This document shows positions 33,313-41,553 of a DNA stretch of 64,000 nt, one piece after another. The stretch spans positions 1,038,501-1,102,500 of the forward strand of contig NZ_CP136758.1 of assembly GCF_032930845.1 (NCBI RefSeq). The letters are read 5' to 3'. The notes beneath the pieces were generated by a model, which saw only the letters and a list, made by a program, of their open reading frames with translations, did no database searches and was not told where the DNA came from. How positions within the stretch are numbered: the stretch's first letter is position 1; each line of letters begins with the position of its first letter. This DNA is from Parvularcula sp. LCG005. Lineage in GTDB: Bacteria > Pseudomonadota > Alphaproteobacteria > Caulobacterales > Parvularculaceae. The translations under genes and the position numbers were made by a program.

Positions 33313-35535
33313 TTATTTCTGGTGCGCGAGAAGGACGCCCAGCATGTTGATGTAGTCATCGGTCCATGGCCGACCGCCATCACTCTGCACGTGTCGCCAG
33401 CGCGCATCGGTATCCAGGGCGGCCAGATCGCTTGTCGCGCGTGCAAGGACGACGGCATGGGTCGGCAGGATCGACAGCCCGTCCCCGGCGTGATCCGGCT
33501 GGAACCGTTGGGCCCGCATAACCAGGCCTTCTGCTTCGGCAATCCGCGCCAGGACGGGCTCGAGGTCCATGTAGCGGTTTGAGATATGGAAGATCAGGAC
33601 GCCGTCATCGCTCAGTCGACTGACATAGCCGCGCATGGCCTCACGCGTCAGGAGGTGCGTGGGAACAACGTCCGAACTGAAAGCGTCGATCAGCAGGAGG
33701 TCTAAGGACGCAGGAGACGCCTGCATCAGGGTCAGGCGACCATCGCCAAGCACAATAGGGGCCTCAGGCGCGCACTGGGACAGGAAGGTGAACCAGTCTG
33801 TATTCTGTGCCGTACGGACGACCACCGGATCGATCTCGAAAAACGTCACCGACTGATTTGGCGACAGAAGGCAGGCGGAGGCGCCGACCCCTAAGCCGAC
33901 CGCGCCGGTGCGCGGCTTGTCAGCGAACGCTGCATAGGCCTGTCCGATAGGGGTGTCGGGGTGATAATACATAAGCGGTGTCGGGCGACCCACTTCATCT
34001 GTGTACTGTGCGCCGTGGACCGTGGTGCCGTGGATCATCCGACGCAGGCCGTCGACCTCATCGACACTGACGACGCCGAAGAACCCGCGCTCGGTGGCAA
34101 GGGTCGGCGTATGCTGGGCGGAGACGATACCGCTGCCGAAATAGGCGAGGGCACCGGCAAAGGTAGGCAGATATCGATGATCCTTGCTGATCAGCATCAT
34201 GACGATCGGCATGACCAGAAGGATGTAAAGGGCGCCGATCGCTCCGGATCTGTCGGTGGCACTTGTGACGGCCAGCGCGGCAAGAACGGCCAGGACCGAC
34301 AGGGTCGCGATGGCCAGATCCTTGCGCTGCCAGGTGCCCCGGGTGCCAGGCAACAGGACCAGCAGAGCGAGGAGAACCAGCGGGTATTCGACGACATCGT
34401 TGAAAAGCACGGGCGCGAGCAGGGCGTTGAAGGCCCCGCCGATAACACCGCCCAGCGACATGATGAGGTAGAATTCGGTCAGATGCGCCGTGGACGGACG
34501 ACGTGCGGCCAAGGTGCCGTGACAGACAAGGCCCGCCACCAGCACCATGGTGATGTTCAGCAGCAGCATTGGCAGCAACGGCGCGGCGAACAGGTTGTGG
34601 CACAGGAAGAGCAGAAGCGCCGCTGTCACATAGGGCGCAACGGACACCGCCCAGCGGGTCGCGCGGGGACCGGCTTTGGAAAAGACGATGATGAAGCTGC
34701 CGATATAGGCGATCAGCGGCGGCGCCCACAGAAACGGCCCGGCCGCCACATCTGTTGTGATGTGGGTCGTTGCACCAACGAGAAGGCTCGATGGGACGAA
34801 GGCGAGCGTAAGCCAGGTCAGGCGTTCTCGCCAGTTGGGTGCAGGGCAGTCTTCGACGGTGCCTGCGGTGTGGTTTGGCCCCGCATGTCGTCCGGTGTTG
34901 AACGCCAGCCACCCGCAGGCGATGAGCGCCGCGCCCACCAGCACATAGGCGCTGCTCCACACAAAGGATTGTCCGCTCAAGGACATGAGCGGTTCCAGTA
35001 GGACCGGATAGGCTACGAGGCCGATGATCGAGCCAATATTGCTGGCGCCATAGAGATAATAGGGATCCGCCGCATCTGGTCGGCCCGACCGCGAATACCA
35101 GGACTGAATCAGCGGGGCGGTGGCGGAGAGCGCGGTAAAGGGCGGGGCGATCGACAGGGCGAAGGCGGCGCTGAGCCAAAGGGCCGGGCGATGGGGATCA
35201 GGATCACCAAGCATGCCGGTCAGGCCCAGAGGCAGAACGCTGGCGGCCATGATCACGACAATGGCGTGAATGATGATCTGAAGACGCAGGGAGGCCAGCC
35301 GCGACAGGAGATGCGCGTATAGATACCCTAGCAGCAGCGCTGCCTGAAAACAGACAAGCGTTACATTCCAGACGCTCGGCGCTCCGCCCAGAATGGGCAG
35401 AACCATCTTGGCGAACATGGGTTGGACCAGAAAAATGAGCGCGGCACTGAGAAAGATCGTCAGGGCATAGGGCAGCACGCCGACGCGCGACGTCTGGAAA
35501 CTGGTCCGCGGCGAAACAATAGCCGAGTCGGTCAT
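33313..35535 (-). CDS. membrane protein fused to spermidine-synthase-like domain
   Basis: 740-aa fusion. The N-terminal two thirds have about twelve hydrophobic segments (for example YALTIFLSAALIFLVQPMFAK, FVWSSAYVLVGAALIACGWL, IAYIGSFIIVFSKAG). The C-terminal third has the aminopropyltransferase/methyltransferase fold: GLGVGASACLLSP (Gly-rich loop), FFEIDPVV, LGDGRLTL, and LLLIDAFSSDVVPTHLLT with the Asp pair of spermidine synthases. The start at MTDSAIVSPRT (35535) precedes the first membrane helix; the longer frame is unlikely. Members are annotated as fused MFS/spermidine synthases; whether they make or export polyamines is not known. Confidence 0.87.
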   Translation of the reverse strand: MTDSAIVSPRTSFQTSRVGVLPYALTIFLSAALIFLVQPMFAKMVLPILGGAPSVWNVTLVCFQAALLLGYLYAHLLSRLASLRLQIIIHAIVVIMAASVLPLGLTGMLGDPDPHRPALWLSAAFALSIAPPFTALSATAPLIQSWYSRSGRPDAADPYYLYGASNIGSIIGLVAYPVLLEPLMSLSGQSFVWSSAYVLVGAALIACGWLAFNTGRHAGPNHTAGTVEDCPAPNWRERLTWLTLAFVPSSLLVGATTHITTDVAAGPFLWAPPLIAYIGSFIIVFSKAGPRATRWAVSVAPYVTAALLLFLCHNLFAAPLLPMLLLNITMVLVAGLVCHGTLAARRPSTAHLTEFYLIMSLGGVIGGAFNALLAPVLFNDVVEYPLVLLALLVLLPGTRGTWQRKDLAIATLSVLAVLAALAVTSATDRSGAIGALYILLVMPIVMMLISKDHRYLPTFAGALAYFGSGIVSAQHTPTLATERGFFGVVSVDEVDGLRRMIHGTTVHGAQYTDEVGRPTPLMYYHPDTPIGQAYAAFADKPRTGAVGLGVGASACLLSPNQSVTFFEIDPVVVRTAQNTDWFTFLSQCAPEAPIVLGDGRLTLMQASPASLDLLLIDAFSSDVVPTHLLTREAMRGYVSRLSDDGVLIFHISNRYMDLEPVLARIAEAEGLVMRAQRFQPDHAGDGLSILPTHAVVLARATSDLAALDTDARWRHVQSDGGRPWTDDYINMLGVLLAHQK

Positions 35536-35764
35536 GCAAGGGCTCCCTGTCGCCCTCACAATACCGGGACACCGTTGAGGAGCGTTGAGCCCCATCGGTC
35601 CAATTGTAATGAAATGACCGGTTCCGGGCCCAGAATGGTGGCGAAAAGCCCACACTTGGTGTCTGCCGGACGGCTGAGATGGCTACTACCGCATTGCCCC
35701 CGGGCTGTCTTTCCCATAGCTTAACGATCGGAAACGCTGTTTGCGGGAATGGGGCTGAGAACAG

Positions 35765-37048
35765 ATGACGTGTGAAGTGGTCTTGATGAACCGGCAGGCT
35801 GTCGCAATGGCGGCGGACAGTGCGGTCACGATCTCCGGTCCCGATTATCTCAAGACCTATAACAGCGTCGACAAGCTGTTCCCGCTGATCAAGGACCAGC
35901 CCGTCGGCGTGATGATCTATAACAATGCCGAGCTCATGGGCACGCCATGGGAGACCCTGATCTCCATGTATCGGGATCAGGCGCGCGGCAAGAGCTTTGA
36001 CACGGTCGACGGCTATGCCCGCGATTTCATTGGCTTTCTGTCGGGCAATCCGGACCTGTTCAGTCAGGAGCATCAGGACCGCGAGTTCTGCAAGCATATC
36101 GCCGTGGTGATGAGCATCATCGCCCAGGATTTCGACTACCAGCTGGCGCAATTCCAGCAGGCTCAGGCGGGCAAACTGAGCGATCACATCAGCGCCATTT
36201 TCGAGTTTGTCGTCGATCAGCTGCATCGGGACTACAACTCCAATCTGAACGGCTCACCGCGCGGGGAGCTTGCCTGCTTCCCCCAGGGCACCGCCGAGCA
36301 GCTGCAGCGTCGCTATAATGGTCCGATCAACGATATTGTTGAAAGCCTGATTGCCTCGCTCAAGTCAGAATTCTCAGGTCTGACCCTGTCCCAGGCCACG
36401 CGAGCGCAGCTGAATGAAATTGCTGTGTTTTCGGTCATCAAGGATGCGTTTTTCGAGCATTACACCGGGGTCGTCTTTGCCGGTTTCGGGCGCCGGGAGA
36501 GTTTCCCTGCCGTGCGCAGCTATCTGACCTCAACGGTCATTATGGGCACGCTGAAACATCGTCAGGACCGCTCGGCGAACATCTCAGCCGACAGTGGCCC
36601 GGTGATTCAGCCCTTTGCCCAGGACCGGATGATTCGCACCTTCCTGACCGGCATGGATCAAAGCCTGCGCATGTTCATGTTCGGCGAAACACTGCGGCTT
36701 TCGCGCCATCTGGTGTCGGATGTTGTGGGCCGTGCGCCGGGTCTGTCCGATGACCAGCGGGCACAACTGTTCTCTGATTACTCCCAGCAGAATCTGGGCA
36801 CCGCATTGCAGGCGTTTTTTGGCGCGATCGACCAGTTCCAGTATATCACGCATACTGGTCCGATCCTGCGCGCCATCTCATCCCTGCCGAAAAAGGAACT
36901 GGGGGAAACGGCCGCGTCGCTGGTGAAGCTGAACAGCTTCCAGCAGAAGGTCATGAACTCCATCGAAACCGTCGGCGGGCCGATCAGCCTTGCCACCATT
37001 ACCCGTAACGAGGGGCTCGTTATGGGTAAGGAACGCGCTGAGCTTTAA
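35765..37048 (+). CDS. uncharacterised proteasome-fold (Ntn) hydrolase
   Basis: 427-aa protein of unknown role whose N-terminus reads as a proteasome beta/HslV active site. After removal of the initiator Met (MetAP readily cleaves Met-Thr) the first residue is Thr1 (TCEVVLMNRQAVAMAADSAVT), Asp is at position 17 in AAD, and Lys is at 36 in YNSVDKLFPL, against Thr1/Asp17/Lys33 in HslV. The following PVGVMIYNNAELMG matches the next beta strand. It is more than twice as long as HslV (about 175 aa); residues 180-427 form a helical extension unlike Anbu or HslV. No signal peptide, so cytoplasmic. No HslU/Clp ATPase adjoins it. It is followed at 15 bp by a small basic gene. Catalysis is inference. 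Confidence 0.72.
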   Translation: MTCEVVLMNRQAVAMAADSAVTISGPDYLKTYNSVDKLFPLIKDQPVGVMIYNNAELMGTPWETLISMYRDQARGKSFDTVDGYARDFIGFLSGNPDLFSQEHQDREFCKHIAVVMSIIAQDFDYQLAQFQQAQAGKLSDHISAIFEFVVDQLHRDYNSNLNGSPRGELACFPQGTAEQLQRRYNGPINDIVESLIASLKSEFSGLTLSQATRAQLNEIAVFSVIKDAFFEHYTGVVFAGFGRRESFPAVRSYLTSTVIMGTLKHRQDRSANISADSGPVIQPFAQDRMIRTFLTGMDQSLRMFMFGETLRLSRHLVSDVVGRAPGLSDDQRAQLFSDYSQQNLGTALQAFFGAIDQFQYITHTGPILRAISSLPKKELGETAASLVKLNSFQQKVMNSIETVGGPISLATITRNEGLVMGKERAEL

Positions 37049-37063
37049 GGGAGCCTGAGCATC

Positions 37064-37516
37064 ATGAAGGATCGCCTGCAGCAGATCTGGTCCGGTTTCG
37101 GTGAGCGTACGACGCTCGACCTCTCCGGCACGTCCATCAACAACACGCCGCGGCCCGGCTTTGAACGCAATTTGGAGCGGGAGGCCCATGCCCTCGACCG
37201 CCCGATGGCGGAAGCCCTGCGGGCAACCCACCTGCCAGACGGCATGACCGATCCGGTCGGCGCGGCCTTCAGCGCGCTTCACTCCTCCATGGCCGCGCAG
37301 AAGAAACCGGCGCGGGGTCGCAAGGCGCGGGCGCAGGACATGCCGACGGCCAGCTTCGCGATGCCGGAGTCGAATATTGAAAAGACGCTGTTGGCGGATC
37401 TTGCATTCACGCGCAGCAAGACGGTCCGCCGGGATAGCGACTACATTTCCTATGCCGCGGCCCGTCAGGCCGACTGGCAGAAGAGGAAGCGTAAGCGGTT
37501 CCTCGGCATCTTCTAG
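37064..37516 (+). CDS. small basic protein paired with Ntn-hydrolase gene
   Basis: 150-aa cytoplasmic, Ala/Arg/Lys-rich protein, mostly helical and partly disordered, with a basic Arg/Lys patch (QKKPARGRKARAQ near residue 87) and a strongly basic end (WQKRKRKRFLGIF). I do not recognise the family. AAGGGAGCC gives a good ribosome-binding site, and only 15 bp separate it from the hydrolase gene, so the two almost certainly form an operon. A substrate, adaptor or inhibitor of the upstream hydrolase is the obvious guess, but nothing in the sequence proves it. Confidence 0.68.
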   Translation: MKDRLQQIWSGFGERTTLDLSGTSINNTPRPGFERNLEREAHALDRPMAEALRATHLPDGMTDPVGAAFSALHSSMAAQKKPARGRKARAQDMPTASFAMPESNIEKTLLADLAFTRSKTVRRDSDYISYAAARQADWQKRKRKRFLGIF

Positions 37517-38518: not shown

Positions 38519-38601
38519 ACGGCCTATTGCAAGTCTCGCGAACGAAAGTGGGTCGTTCGCTTATCGTATTCAGAATTGCAATCTGCCTTAGGGGGCAAAG
38601 C

Positions 38602-41553
38602 ATGGTTTTCACATCCTCCATCCGCCGCGGACTTTTCGCGACCAGCGCCTGTGCCGTTCTTGCTGCCTGTTCTGGGAGCGGCAACATCTCCAGCACCGGC
38701 AGTGCCGGGCCTGTCACCATCGGTGGCGGCAACAGCGGTGGCGGGTCGACCGCGGATGTCAGCTTCGTTCCTAACGGTTTTACGTGCCCGACCGGCACGA
38801 CACAGGATCAGGTCAGCGTCGGCGCAGTCCAGATCGAAGCCTGTATCATTCCGGCCGGTACGATTGTGGCTGATACAACGCTGCCAGGCACATCGGGCAA
38901 TGCGCGCGTCGGCTACTTCCTTCAGGGTGCTGTCTTTGTTGGTGACAACCTCATCTCAAACCCATCGGGTTCCAGTGCGACGCTGAGCATCGGCGCCGGT
39001 GCCATCATCATGGGTGCCAATGGCGAAGACGCTCTTTTCATCAATCCGGGTTCGGACATTAATGCAGTTGGTACTGAGCTTCAGCCAATCGTCATGACTT
39101 CTGCCACCGACGCGGCCGACGGCAATGTCGATGATGGCCTGGTCAACGGTTCTGCTTCGGCCAAGGGCGAGTGGGGCGGTCTGGTCATCAACGGTCTCGC
39201 ACCGATCAATGACTGTGACGTCTCGACCAACACGCCGGGCGCTGCTGACTGTAACAAGACCGGTGAGGGCGGCTCTGGCCTCTTTGGCGGCAACCAGCCA
39301 AACGACAGCTCAGGCACGCTTTCCTATGTCCGCGTTCAATATGCCGGCTTCCGCTTCAACGGCGAAGACGAGCTGAACGGCATCGCGTTCCAGGGCGTGG
39401 GTGACGGCACGACGGTTGATCACATCCACGTCCATAACGGGAACGATGACGGCGTCGAATTCTTCGGCGGTACCGTCAATGTGAAGAACATCGTCGTCAC
39501 GGGCGCTGATGACGACTCGATCGACTGGACCGACGGCTGGCAGGGTGACCTGCAATTCGCGCTCGTGGTGCAGGACGACGTCTCCGCTGACCGCGGCATC
39601 GAAGGCGACAACCGCGGCAACGACGTCAATGTCGGCGAAGCTCAGGGCGTTGTCTCCCGTCCGAACATCTCGAACTTCACCTTCTTCGGCTCTTCGGCTT
39701 CCGCAGCGTCGCCAAGCGATGGTCTGAAGCTTCGTGCCGGTACAGGCGGTAACATCGCCAATGGTATCGTTCTGGGCTTCGGTCTGGGTGATGGTCTCGA
39801 TTTCGACCGCAACAACAATTACGAAGACAGCGCCGGCAACGTGATCGGTTCAGAGATGGGCAACGCCACGCCTTCGATCAACGCGCTGTTCTTTGCTGAC
39901 AACGCCAAGCCTTACGACAGCGATGGCAAGACCCTTTTCGACGCTGGTGTGGACAACACGGACGCTGTCTTCTCGACCATGAGCGGCGTGATCCCTGGTT
40001 CGGCTGAGCAGGCCGTCAACGTGTTTGACAACACCGCTGGCACAACGCTGACGCTCACCAACTATATCGGTGCCTTCGACCCTGCGTCGGAAAGCAACAG
40101 CGACAACTGGATGACCGGCTGGACCCTGTCCTCCGCAATCCCAGGCGCGCAAGCTGCCGCCTGTCCAGCAGGGACCACGGTTTCGGCAACCGAGACCGTT
40201 CCATCGGGCCGGTTCGAGCAGCTCGTCTGTGTGCTGCCAAACCAGATCGATACAGACATCACGCTGACATCCGGCAACCTCTACACCTTCGCCGGTTCCG
40301 TCTTTATCGGTGGTGACGTTGGTCCAGACGCAACCGCCCCTCTGGCGGGCCGCACGGCAGCAACCCTGACGGTTGAGCCAGGCGTGACCGTTTACGGTTC
40401 CGCTGGTGAAGACGCGATCATCGTGACGCGCGGTTCGCAGCTGGTGGCTGAGGGTACATCGACGGCACCGGTCATCTTCACCTCCAAATCCGACATCGAC
40501 GGCACGGTTCTCGCCAGCGACAAGGGTGAGTGGGGCGGTCTGGTCATCAACGGCCGTGCACCGATTAATGACTGTAACGTCTCGACCAACGTGCCTGGCA
40601 CGATTGGCTGTGAGAAGTCGGGTGAAGGTTCATCGGGTCTCTTCGGCGGTAACGACGAGAACGACGACAGCGGCAGCCTGTCCTATGTTCAGGTCAAATA
40701 TGCCGGCTTCCGCTTCAACGGTGAAGACGAGCTGAACGGTATCGCCTTCCAGGGTGTTGGCGATGCGACGAATGTCGATCACGTCCACGTCCACAACGGT
40801 AACGATGACGGTGTCGAATTCTTCGGCGGTACGGTGAATGTGAAGAACATCATCGTGACGGGCGCGGACGACGACTCGATTGACTGGACCGATGGCTGGC
40901 GGGGGTCGGTGCAGTATGCACTGGTCATTCAGGACGATGTCTCCGCTGACCGCGGCATCGAAGGCGACAACCGCGGCAATGACGTGAATGTCGGCGAAGC
41001 CCAGGGTGTTGTTTCAACCCCGACCATCTCGAACTTCACCTTCTTCGGCTCTTCCGCTTCTGCGGCCAGCCCAAGCGATGGTGTCAAAATTCGTGCGGGT
41101 ACGGACGGCATCCTGTTGAACGGTATCGTGCTCGGCTTCGGTCTGGGCGACGGCATCGATTTCGACCGCAACAACAACTACGAAGACAGCGCAGGCAATG
41201 TGATCGGCTCCGAAGCGGGTAACGCGACGCCAGAACTGTTCTCGATCTACGTCGCAGACAATTCCAAGCCTTACGACACGGATGGCGGCACGCTGTTCAA
41301 CGTCACCGGCGCCGGAAACGTCGAAGGCACTGCGCGCAACATGACCGGGTTCATCCCGAACGCCACGCTGCAGGGCGCGATCGTTGCCAAGGATGTGGCC
41401 ACCATCACCTTCCCGGCGACGGCGGACAACGCCTCCGTGATCGATACGACCGACTATGTCGGTGCGTTCGATCCGGCGACGGAGACCAATGCTGACAACT
41501 GGACGACTGGCTGGTCGTACAACATCAGCACCAGCCTGCCGAACGTCAACTAA
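38602..41553 (+). CDS. ElpS-like surface lipoprotein with two-fold internal duplication
   Basis: 983-aa lipoprotein; start MVFTSSIRRG (38602) chosen for AGGGGGC just upstream and the lipobox LAAC with lipid Cys23. The body is two copies of a roughly 450-aa module, aligned at protein and DNA level with an exact 1359-bp shift: GEWGGLVING, SGLFGGN, YAGFRFNGEDELNGIAFQG, HVHNGNDDGVEFFGG, GADDDSIDWTDGW, DVSADRGIEGDNRGNDVNVG. The Asp/Asn/Gly-rich turns suggest a calcium-stabilised beta-helix (inference). Position before a TonB receptor and 12 gsp genes, and the Pho boxes upstream, match ElpS of Caulobacter crescentus, a phosphate-starvation lipoprotein whose release needs the T2SS. Homology to ElpS itself is inferred from context, not alignment. 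Confidence 0.8.
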   Translation: MVFTSSIRRGLFATSACAVLAACSGSGNISSTGSAGPVTIGGGNSGGGSTADVSFVPNGFTCPTGTTQDQVSVGAVQIEACIIPAGTIVADTTLPGTSGNARVGYFLQGAVFVGDNLISNPSGSSATLSIGAGAIIMGANGEDALFINPGSDINAVGTELQPIVMTSATDAADGNVDDGLVNGSASAKGEWGGLVINGLAPINDCDVSTNTPGAADCNKTGEGGSGLFGGNQPNDSSGTLSYVRVQYAGFRFNGEDELNGIAFQGVGDGTTVDHIHVHNGNDDGVEFFGGTVNVKNIVVTGADDDSIDWTDGWQGDLQFALVVQDDVSADRGIEGDNRGNDVNVGEAQGVVSRPNISNFTFFGSSASAASPSDGLKLRAGTGGNIANGIVLGFGLGDGLDFDRNNNYEDSAGNVIGSEMGNATPSINALFFADNAKPYDSDGKTLFDAGVDNTDAVFSTMSGVIPGSAEQAVNVFDNTAGTTLTLTNYIGAFDPASESNSDNWMTGWTLSSAIPGAQAAACPAGTTVSATETVPSGRFEQLVCVLPNQIDTDITLTSGNLYTFAGSVFIGGDVGPDATAPLAGRTAATLTVEPGVTVYGSAGEDAIIVTRGSQLVAEGTSTAPVIFTSKSDIDGTVLASDKGEWGGLVINGRAPINDCNVSTNVPGTIGCEKSGEGSSGLFGGNDENDDSGSLSYVQVKYAGFRFNGEDELNGIAFQGVGDATNVDHVHVHNGNDDGVEFFGGTVNVKNIIVTGADDDSIDWTDGWRGSVQYALVIQDDVSADRGIEGDNRGNDVNVGEAQGVVSTPTISNFTFFGSSASAASPSDGVKIRAGTDGILLNGIVLGFGLGDGIDFDRNNNYEDSAGNVIGSEAGNATPELFSIYVADNSKPYDTDGGTLFNVTGAGNVEGTARNMTGFIPNATLQGAIVAKDVATITFPATADNASVIDTTDYVGAFDPATETNADNWTTGWSYNISTSLPNVN

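Follow-up and report, generated by a model that had tools for sequence, protein, structure and literature searches.

A 64,000-nucleotide stretch of the genome of Parvularcula sp. LCG005, a marine bacterium (the window), contains a real, conserved two-gene unit, in which a 427-aa hydrolase is followed by a small companion, ORF2. The enzyme is of a recently described kind and its obligate companion is new, within the searches named here. We see an even chance that the unit pairs a proteasome-beta-like Ntn hydrolase with an obligate small companion that tethers or controls it.

Layout of the unit

The unit lies in a genome assembled as a single contig of 3.08 Mb (Table 1). A sequence-only reading of the window had described two ORFs of 427 and 150 aa, 15 bp apart, and both are present as it described them. 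Searches of Pfam, NCBIfam and PADLOC gave nothing significant for either protein. The same reading held that no partner ATPase is adjacent, and none of the four neighbouring proteins tested matched an AAA+ family (Pfam was blank for two of these four). Promoter/terminator and repeat scans returned nothing above chance or of note. The surrounding region also carries a 780-aa ORF (33313-35655), which looks by eye like a multi-span membrane protein whose C-terminal part resembles a spermidine synthase, and a 1008-aa lipoprotein-like ORF (38527-41553) with two similar halves by eye; neither has a Pfam match.

Table 1. Features of the hydrolase-companion unit, with positions in the window.
Feature	Position	Strand	Remarks
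Hydrolase gene (P0001)	35765..37048	+	ATG start, 427 aa, proteasome-beta-like Ntn hydrolase
Thr1 codon	35768..35770	+	predicted nucleophile once Met is removed
Asp17 codon	35816..35818	+	
Lys36 codon	35873..35875	+	counterpart of proteasome Lys33
First helical insert, hydrolase residues 81-225	36005..36439	+	five helices; secondary structure of the model
Central strands, hydrolase residues 234-284	36464..36616	+	conserved TG(I/V)V(F/I)AG(F/Y)G and FAQ; alignments and model
Second helical insert, hydrolase helix 329-372	36749..36880	+	model
Closing strands, hydrolase residues 407-423	36983..37033	+	preceded by (E)TVGGP; alignment and model
Intergenic gap, 15 nt	37049..37063	+	starts gggag, ribosome-site-like by eye
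Partner ORF2 (P0002)	37064..37516	+	ATG start, 150 aa; separate helices, four short conserved blocks
Cationic aromatic C-terminal tail of ORF2	37478..37513	+	QKRKRKRFLGIF-COOH

Catalytic residues and fold of the hydrolase

Thr1, Asp17 and Lys36 (numbered without the Met) lie in the hydrolase at the places proposed. All three are invariant in alignments of 24 rows (A1) and 61 rows (A2), and in an alignment of 71 rows Thr1 is kept in 70/70 (one row starts past it), Asp17 in 71/71 and Lys36 in 71/71. With the Met counted, the invariant positions of A2 include T2, N9, D18, K37, M50, P61, W62, G235, G240, G242, G296, G404 and G405, among others.

The AF2 model of the hydrolase, a single chain like all AF2 models here, was confident (pLDDT 89.4, pTM 0.85). 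A Foldseek search with this model returned 28 PDB matches at E<=0.001, every one of them a proteasome-entry chain, and the first Anbu match came after these (E 1.4e-3). Two inserts within the Ntn fold kept the TM-scores low (TMq about 0.25). In a viral structure library, only two phage proteins matched at E<=0.001: one, from a Gordonia phage, is uncharacterised, and the other bears the name proteasome beta type-2.

A single-sequence search of PDB with the hydrolase gave nothing convincing. Among PDB sequences, the A2 profile ranked proteasome beta subunits highest, for example 1pma_B (E about 0.002), which we take to come from Thermoplasma. 1pma_B is an archaeal proteasome beta subunit (PMC8665760, available part). 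When the A2 profile is aligned to archaeal proteasome beta, the N-terminal block Thr1-Lys33 and GGxIDVAVI are in register, the Lys36 region falls on KKLF, and the family consensus at the closing strands falls on GGMIDVAVITRKDG. PF00227 did not match the window hydrolase and matched 2/61 family members (best 2.4e-4), and the profile reached an archaeal beta subunit at E 0.0018. Another Pfam family, NNH1 (NACHT N-terminal helical domain), matched one of the 61 members in A2 at 1.4e-5.

According to the model, the hydrolase carries an alpha-beta-beta-alpha Ntn core, in agreement with the proteasome-fold assignment of the sequence-only reading. That reading also had it as a long hydrolase with a helical C-terminal half; the length stands, and the helical layout does not, as the model places the helical parts in two inserts inside one Ntn fold and not in an appended C-terminal half. 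Helices in residues 62-225 and 288-398 separate the N-terminal, central and closing strands. Because the helices sit between the strand sets of the fold, a structure prediction of the first 180 residues, as had been suggested, would cut the fold apart. The inserts are modelled after H1 and between H3/H4, where they adjoin the surfaces through which proteasomes form ring contacts. The sequence-only reading suggested that the hydrolase could be a self-compartmentalised protease; it has been argued that inserts at these two sites could prevent ring or double-ring assembly (PMC8665760, available part). The protein is very probably an active Ntn hydrolase.

Relationship to known proteasome-like proteins

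The suggestion that the hydrolase could be undescribed is not supported: it belongs to PHROG 5990, its residues 1-420 matching positions 1-408 of the 427 in the profile (E 6.1e-81), and it answers to the description of PMI-4 in Fuchs et al. 2021. PHROG 5990 is annotated as of unknown function, no mention of it by name was found in the searched literature, and neither of two phage companions tested has a PHROG match. Fuchs, Alva and Lupas described 22 new proteasome-like families, for which the available part of their paper reports neither a gene context that suggests a function nor an AAA+ partner (PMC8665760). Long inserts after H1/H2 and between H3/H4 are placed there in PMI-3 and in PMI-4 (Proteasome homolog with Multiple Insertions 4). 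PMI-4 is listed for Proteobacteria, Firmicutes, Bacteroidetes and phages, and PMI-3 is not listed for Firmicutes or phages (PMC8665760, Table 1).

The present hydrolase shares with PMI-4 a proteasome-like core, a long insert after H1/H2 (residues 81-225), a second insert between H3/H4 (helix 329-372) and the lack of an identified AAA+ interactor, and its family has the same taxonomic range of Proteobacteria, Firmicutes, Bacteroidetes and phages. Since PMI-4 is the only two-insert family listed for Firmicutes and phages, we infer from the published description that the hydrolase is probably PMI-4. There is one difference: the available part of the paper reports no suggestive gene context, whereas here a small companion gene lies behind almost every copy. 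The accessible text of two citing papers held nothing on the function of the families of Fuchs et al.

Elsewhere, the window genome carries a separate hslV-hslU-like pair and a likely Anbu beside a 325-aa ORF (L232, G000:C1 1585354-1585944; PF00227). The names HslV and Anbu were given to these copies by eye and from general knowledge, and the genome seems to hold both of these proteins, as we take them to be, together with the present hydrolase. HslV is also a Thr1-type Ntn hydrolase of the proteasome family; however, the HslV-like protein has 178 aa against the 427 of the hydrolase, and it has an adjacent ATPase partner where the hydrolase has none. Anbu is likewise bacterial and proteasome-like and is in the Foldseek list of the hydrolase model, but it has 243 aa and its profile alignment with the hydrolase spans 17 columns only. 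The alignment of the hydrolase with the HslV profile gave nothing convincing. With likely copies of both elsewhere in the genome and no convincing alignment, we rejected the hydrolase as a paralogue of HslV or Anbu, consistent with the original view that it is unlike either.

Distribution and gene neighbourhoods

The closest named relatives of the hydrolase are from Parvularcula. A match was found in 37 of 61 genomes (the window genome and 60 relatives). The core version is present in 33 of the 37 same-family genomes, window genome included, with relatives 59-80% identical, and the genome collection holds 51 Parvularculaceae-type loci. Beyond Parvularculaceae the hydrolase is sparse: it was found in 15/385 genomes class-wide and, with the 24-row alignment A1, in 11/398 phylum-wide, the window genome being counted both times. 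Matches were also found in 10 plasmid records, of which 9 cover >=80% of the query, and in 13 records of phages or satellite phages. Viral contigs scanned with the window hydrolase alone gave nothing; with an alignment query, 172 stretches matched and the best 80 of 172 were fetched. Two versions are found in E. coli (9 and 13 of 5426 genomes), and in the two E. coli loci examined the hydrolase lies among phage genes.

A midpoint-rooted tree of 71 hydrolases separates clade A, which contains the chromosomal alphaproteobacterial copies including Parvularculaceae (printed support 0.936, some inner nodes weak), from clade B, which contains phages, plasmids and scattered bacteria (support 0.444). 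Six neighbours of three clade A copies comprised five metabolic or tRNA-modification genes and one gene without a match, and the four neighbours of two clade B bacterial copies were metabolic or transport genes. One clade A pair (L211, 3082-7352) sits between queA and tgt on the same strand, as if in a queuosine operon, and a chromosomal copy from clade B (L220) sits between shikimate dehydrogenase and coaE genes. We considered whether the window copy is part of a defence island and rejected this, given that neither protein has a PADLOC match and that the bacterial neighbours tested in both clades are mostly metabolic, tRNA-modification and transport genes.

A heuristic ORF caller, applied to the 51 loci plus the window, picked up the hydrolase in 45 of them and ORF2 in 40; the most frequent family after these reached 33 and does not lie near the window copy. 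Some of the loci are cut by contig ends.

On Rhizobium plasmids (L109, L204, L205 and L208) and a Mesorhizobium plasmid (L106), the hydrolase lies <=6 kb from ThiF-E1/multiubiquitin genes, and the Rhizobium loci also carry ClpP-like genes. The E1 proteins of R. gallicum and Mesorhizobium are 37% identical, suggesting two separate linkages between the hydrolase and a ubiquitin cassette. The 21 other loci compared (two of which are the same place) gave no match, and the multiubiquitin family had no match in the window genome and exceeded the cut-off in 2/37 genomes. A dependence of the hydrolase on bacterial ubiquitin was rejected: on these results the cassette is not a required part.

A small companion gene behind the hydrolase

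ORF2 stands behind the hydrolase in all 51 Parvularculaceae-type loci; 50 copies are complete, and that of L038, which runs off its contig, was left out of the companion alignments and tail counts. An ORF2 search of the 61 genomes gave 33 hits, in the same 33 genomes as the core hydrolase. Both genes are missing from the remaining 4/37 family genomes, one of which is only 66% complete and one of which has a distant enzyme copy. A dedicated second gene, as proposed for the pair, is supported.

Among viral representatives, an ATG-started ORF of 34-75 aa begins <=40 nt from the hydrolase stop in 42/45 cases; of the other three, two have a GTG-started ORF and L133 has none. Three of the 48 representatives (L114, L132 and L136) had too little downstream sequence and were dropped from this count. 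As a control, an ORF of 34-75 aa is found at the same spot behind 34/254 other genes of the viral loci. Under a wider criterion of 34-250 aa, 62/147 other same-strand genes also have an ORF there, and 100 rounds of order-1 resampling gave a mean of 5.8/45 and a maximum of 11, this being a weak null in gene-dense phage DNA; the viral contrast rests on the 34-75-aa class. Substitutions in the companions at codon positions 1/2/3 number 210/163/377 in 14 viral pairs (L135/L151, of 20 codons, looks like a chance alignment and is included) and 2960/2267/6514 in 91 Parvularculaceae pairs. This third-position excess shows the ORFs to be coding.

In a set of 38 loci from bacteria, plasmids, phages and E. 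coli, with some near-identical members, 32 have a companion-like ORF within about 80 nt. Among the exceptions, L105 ends at the contig edge, an ORF lies at +151 in L212 and a weak ORF at +106 in L224, and no companion ORF was found in L106, L214 or L223. For L087 (clade A) none was found; the L087 and L214 contigs end 411 nt downstream. The hydrolases of L106 and L223 (= enzyme L192) have C-terminal extensions. The viral hydrolase of L133 (6001-7398, 465 aa), where no downstream ORF was found, has a basic C-terminal extension and is possibly a natural enzyme-companion fusion. In L205 (R. leguminosarum plasmid) and L219 (Hyphomicrobiales UR115), the hydrolase frame is interrupted and the downstream companion-like ORF is open.

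Companions are 90-197 aa long in clade A and mostly 34-78 aa in clade B within the tree; two loci that are not in the tree have companions of 82 and 99 aa. The companions are small, hypervariable and fast-evolving. Since it is short and fast-changing, the companion gene is easy to miss, and the annotation of two E. coli prophage loci has no gene at its position. Nothing on the companion was found in the literature, in a search mostly of papers other than subscription papers and preprints.

ORF2 modelled alone gave separate helices and no tertiary fold (pTM 0.28). Alignment A3 of the companions shows four conserved blocks with variable linkers between them. We consider it quite probable, though one step less so than catalytic activity, that the hydrolase and its companion form a physical complex. 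Short conserved motifs within variable linkers would also suit a companion that serves as acceptor or donor for an enzyme that is not a protease but a specific ligase or amidase akin to archaeal connectase, and the proteasome-like proteins do include a ligase (PMC8665760, available part). We regard this as highly improbable, given that no motif common to all companions is visible by eye and that the hydrolase model shows no counterpart of the two-helix insert which connectase has between S3 and S4.

The companion could instead be the hydrolase's own substrate or inhibitor, a small disordered protein that it cleaves or holds, in the manner of an antitoxin or of an assembly factor like yeast Ump1. 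In phages the pair would then serve as a cassette of the toxin-antitoxin-like or abortive-infection type, and in Parvularculaceae as a domesticated version of it. Small, hypervariable companions would suit such a cassette, and with the longest ATG starts 16/42 viral companions overlap the hydrolase gene by 1-32 nt. Viral units are often free-standing and cargo-like (median upstream gap of 140 nt; >=1 opposite-strand flanking gene in 32/48). In Streptococcus satellite records, the hydrolase is <300 nt from one end in 6/7, judged by position, with one record examined in detail. Other copies adjoin lysis genes or a repressor-like gene, and one or other of the two versions is carried by 22/5426 E. 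coli genomes. However, PADLOC is blank for the window pair, the copy in a Porphyromonas phage has head and tail genes around it, a core version in 33/37 family genomes is unusual for defence cargo, and one copy from clade A is flanked by queA and tgt. Enzyme then companion is not the usual gene order of toxin-antitoxin pairs, and a plain substrate would leave the conserved tail described below unexplained. We therefore judge the substrate or inhibitor reading unlikely, and lean, if only slightly, towards the companion being a tether or regulator rather than a substrate.

A MinD-like tail on the companion

In the tails of the 50 complete Parvularculaceae partners, Phe is at -1 in 48/50, Gly at -3 in 46/50 and Lys at -6 in 48/50. 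The strict tail pattern is found in 46/50 partners versus 0/2108 other ORFs of >=100 aa in the same loci. The D-factor is 2.36 for the ORF2 tail and 1.36 for E. coli MinD, and its median is 2.45 in 42 Parvularculaceae partners versus 0.87 in 329 control ORFs (95th percentile 1.69, maximum 2.30). These values are driven mostly by charge, the amphipathic moment being modest (0.41). Ten other partners from clade A were scored over their last 22 residues: values are above 1.69 in five, close to or under it in L085 (1.68) and L084 (1.33), and low in L094, L099 and L197; in L094 such a stretch lies inside the companion. The cationic aromatic MinD-type tail is a feature of Parvularculaceae and most of their chromosomal alphaproteobacterial relatives. 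Viral partners, at a median of 1.06 versus 0.87 in the controls, are unremarkable by this score, and phage and plasmid companions are shorter and lack the tail.

The C-terminal amphipathic helix of E. coli MinD is a membrane-targeting sequence. The same holds for the C-terminal amphipathic helix of B. subtilis MinD (PMC6158289, available part). The companion of the clade A relative L088 ends RKKGFLRRLFGAR and E. coli MinD ends EEKKGFLKRLFGG, with KKGFL(K/R)RLFG common to both. The companions differ from MinD in that the window companion has no ATPase match and that tails in Parvularculaceae (KKFLGIF, KKRFGIF) are shorter. A search of the window genome gave no MinD above the family cut-off for comparison. 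Judged by its residues, the Parvularculaceae companion tail resembles the MinD membrane-targeting sequence in having a cationic, hydrophobic and amphipathic C-terminus, and membrane tethering by the companion in Parvularculaceae appears plausible, if a little short of an even chance.

A free Phe at the C-terminus would suit docking no less than membrane binding. The C-terminus of HslU inserts into a pocket of HslV, and the companion could be a docking activator whose free (F/L)G(I/L)F tail inserts into the hydrolase pocket in the same way. The motif is at the very C-terminus in nearly all Parvularculaceae partners, and the HslU-like protein of the window genome ends LSKYIL. Several clade A relatives have similar tails, but some carry 2-4 residues past the motif (RRK, SRK, GR, GAR); phage companions lack the motif, and in ORF2, which has no Pfam match, no ATPase domain is apparent. 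We think docking activation rather improbable.

Proposed mode of action

The observation made by the sequence-only reading is confirmed, and its interpretation overall is partly supported. In the mechanism that we favour, a tether or regulator acting on the enzyme, removal of the Met would expose Thr1, which would cleave an amide bond without a dedicated AAA+ unfoldase. The companion, having no fold of its own, would bind the hydrolase through its conserved helices, and its tail would bring the complex to the inner membrane, where this may determine the choice of substrate or restrain activity. Since the companions of phages and plasmids are shorter and tail-less, the basic job of the companion is probably to hold or control the hydrolase, with tethering an addition of the chromosomal clade.

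More tentatively, the hydrolase would be an enzyme of the proteasome family that dispenses with an unfoldase and is governed instead by a companion that is tiny, obligate and hypervariable. The companion would be an inner-membrane pin on alphaproteobacterial chromosomes, and the pair a portable cassette with a 34-78-residue companion in phages, satellites and plasmids, perhaps directed against competing phages; we hold this extended picture to be possible at best.

If true, the unit would represent a further way to control a protease of the proteasome-like kind, in addition to ring gating and AAA+ caps. The companion matters because the available part of the paper describing these families gives neither a gene context that hints at function nor an AAA+ partner (PMC8665760). 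A near-universal companion gene would provide a first handle on the control of one of the larger families of proteasome homologues.
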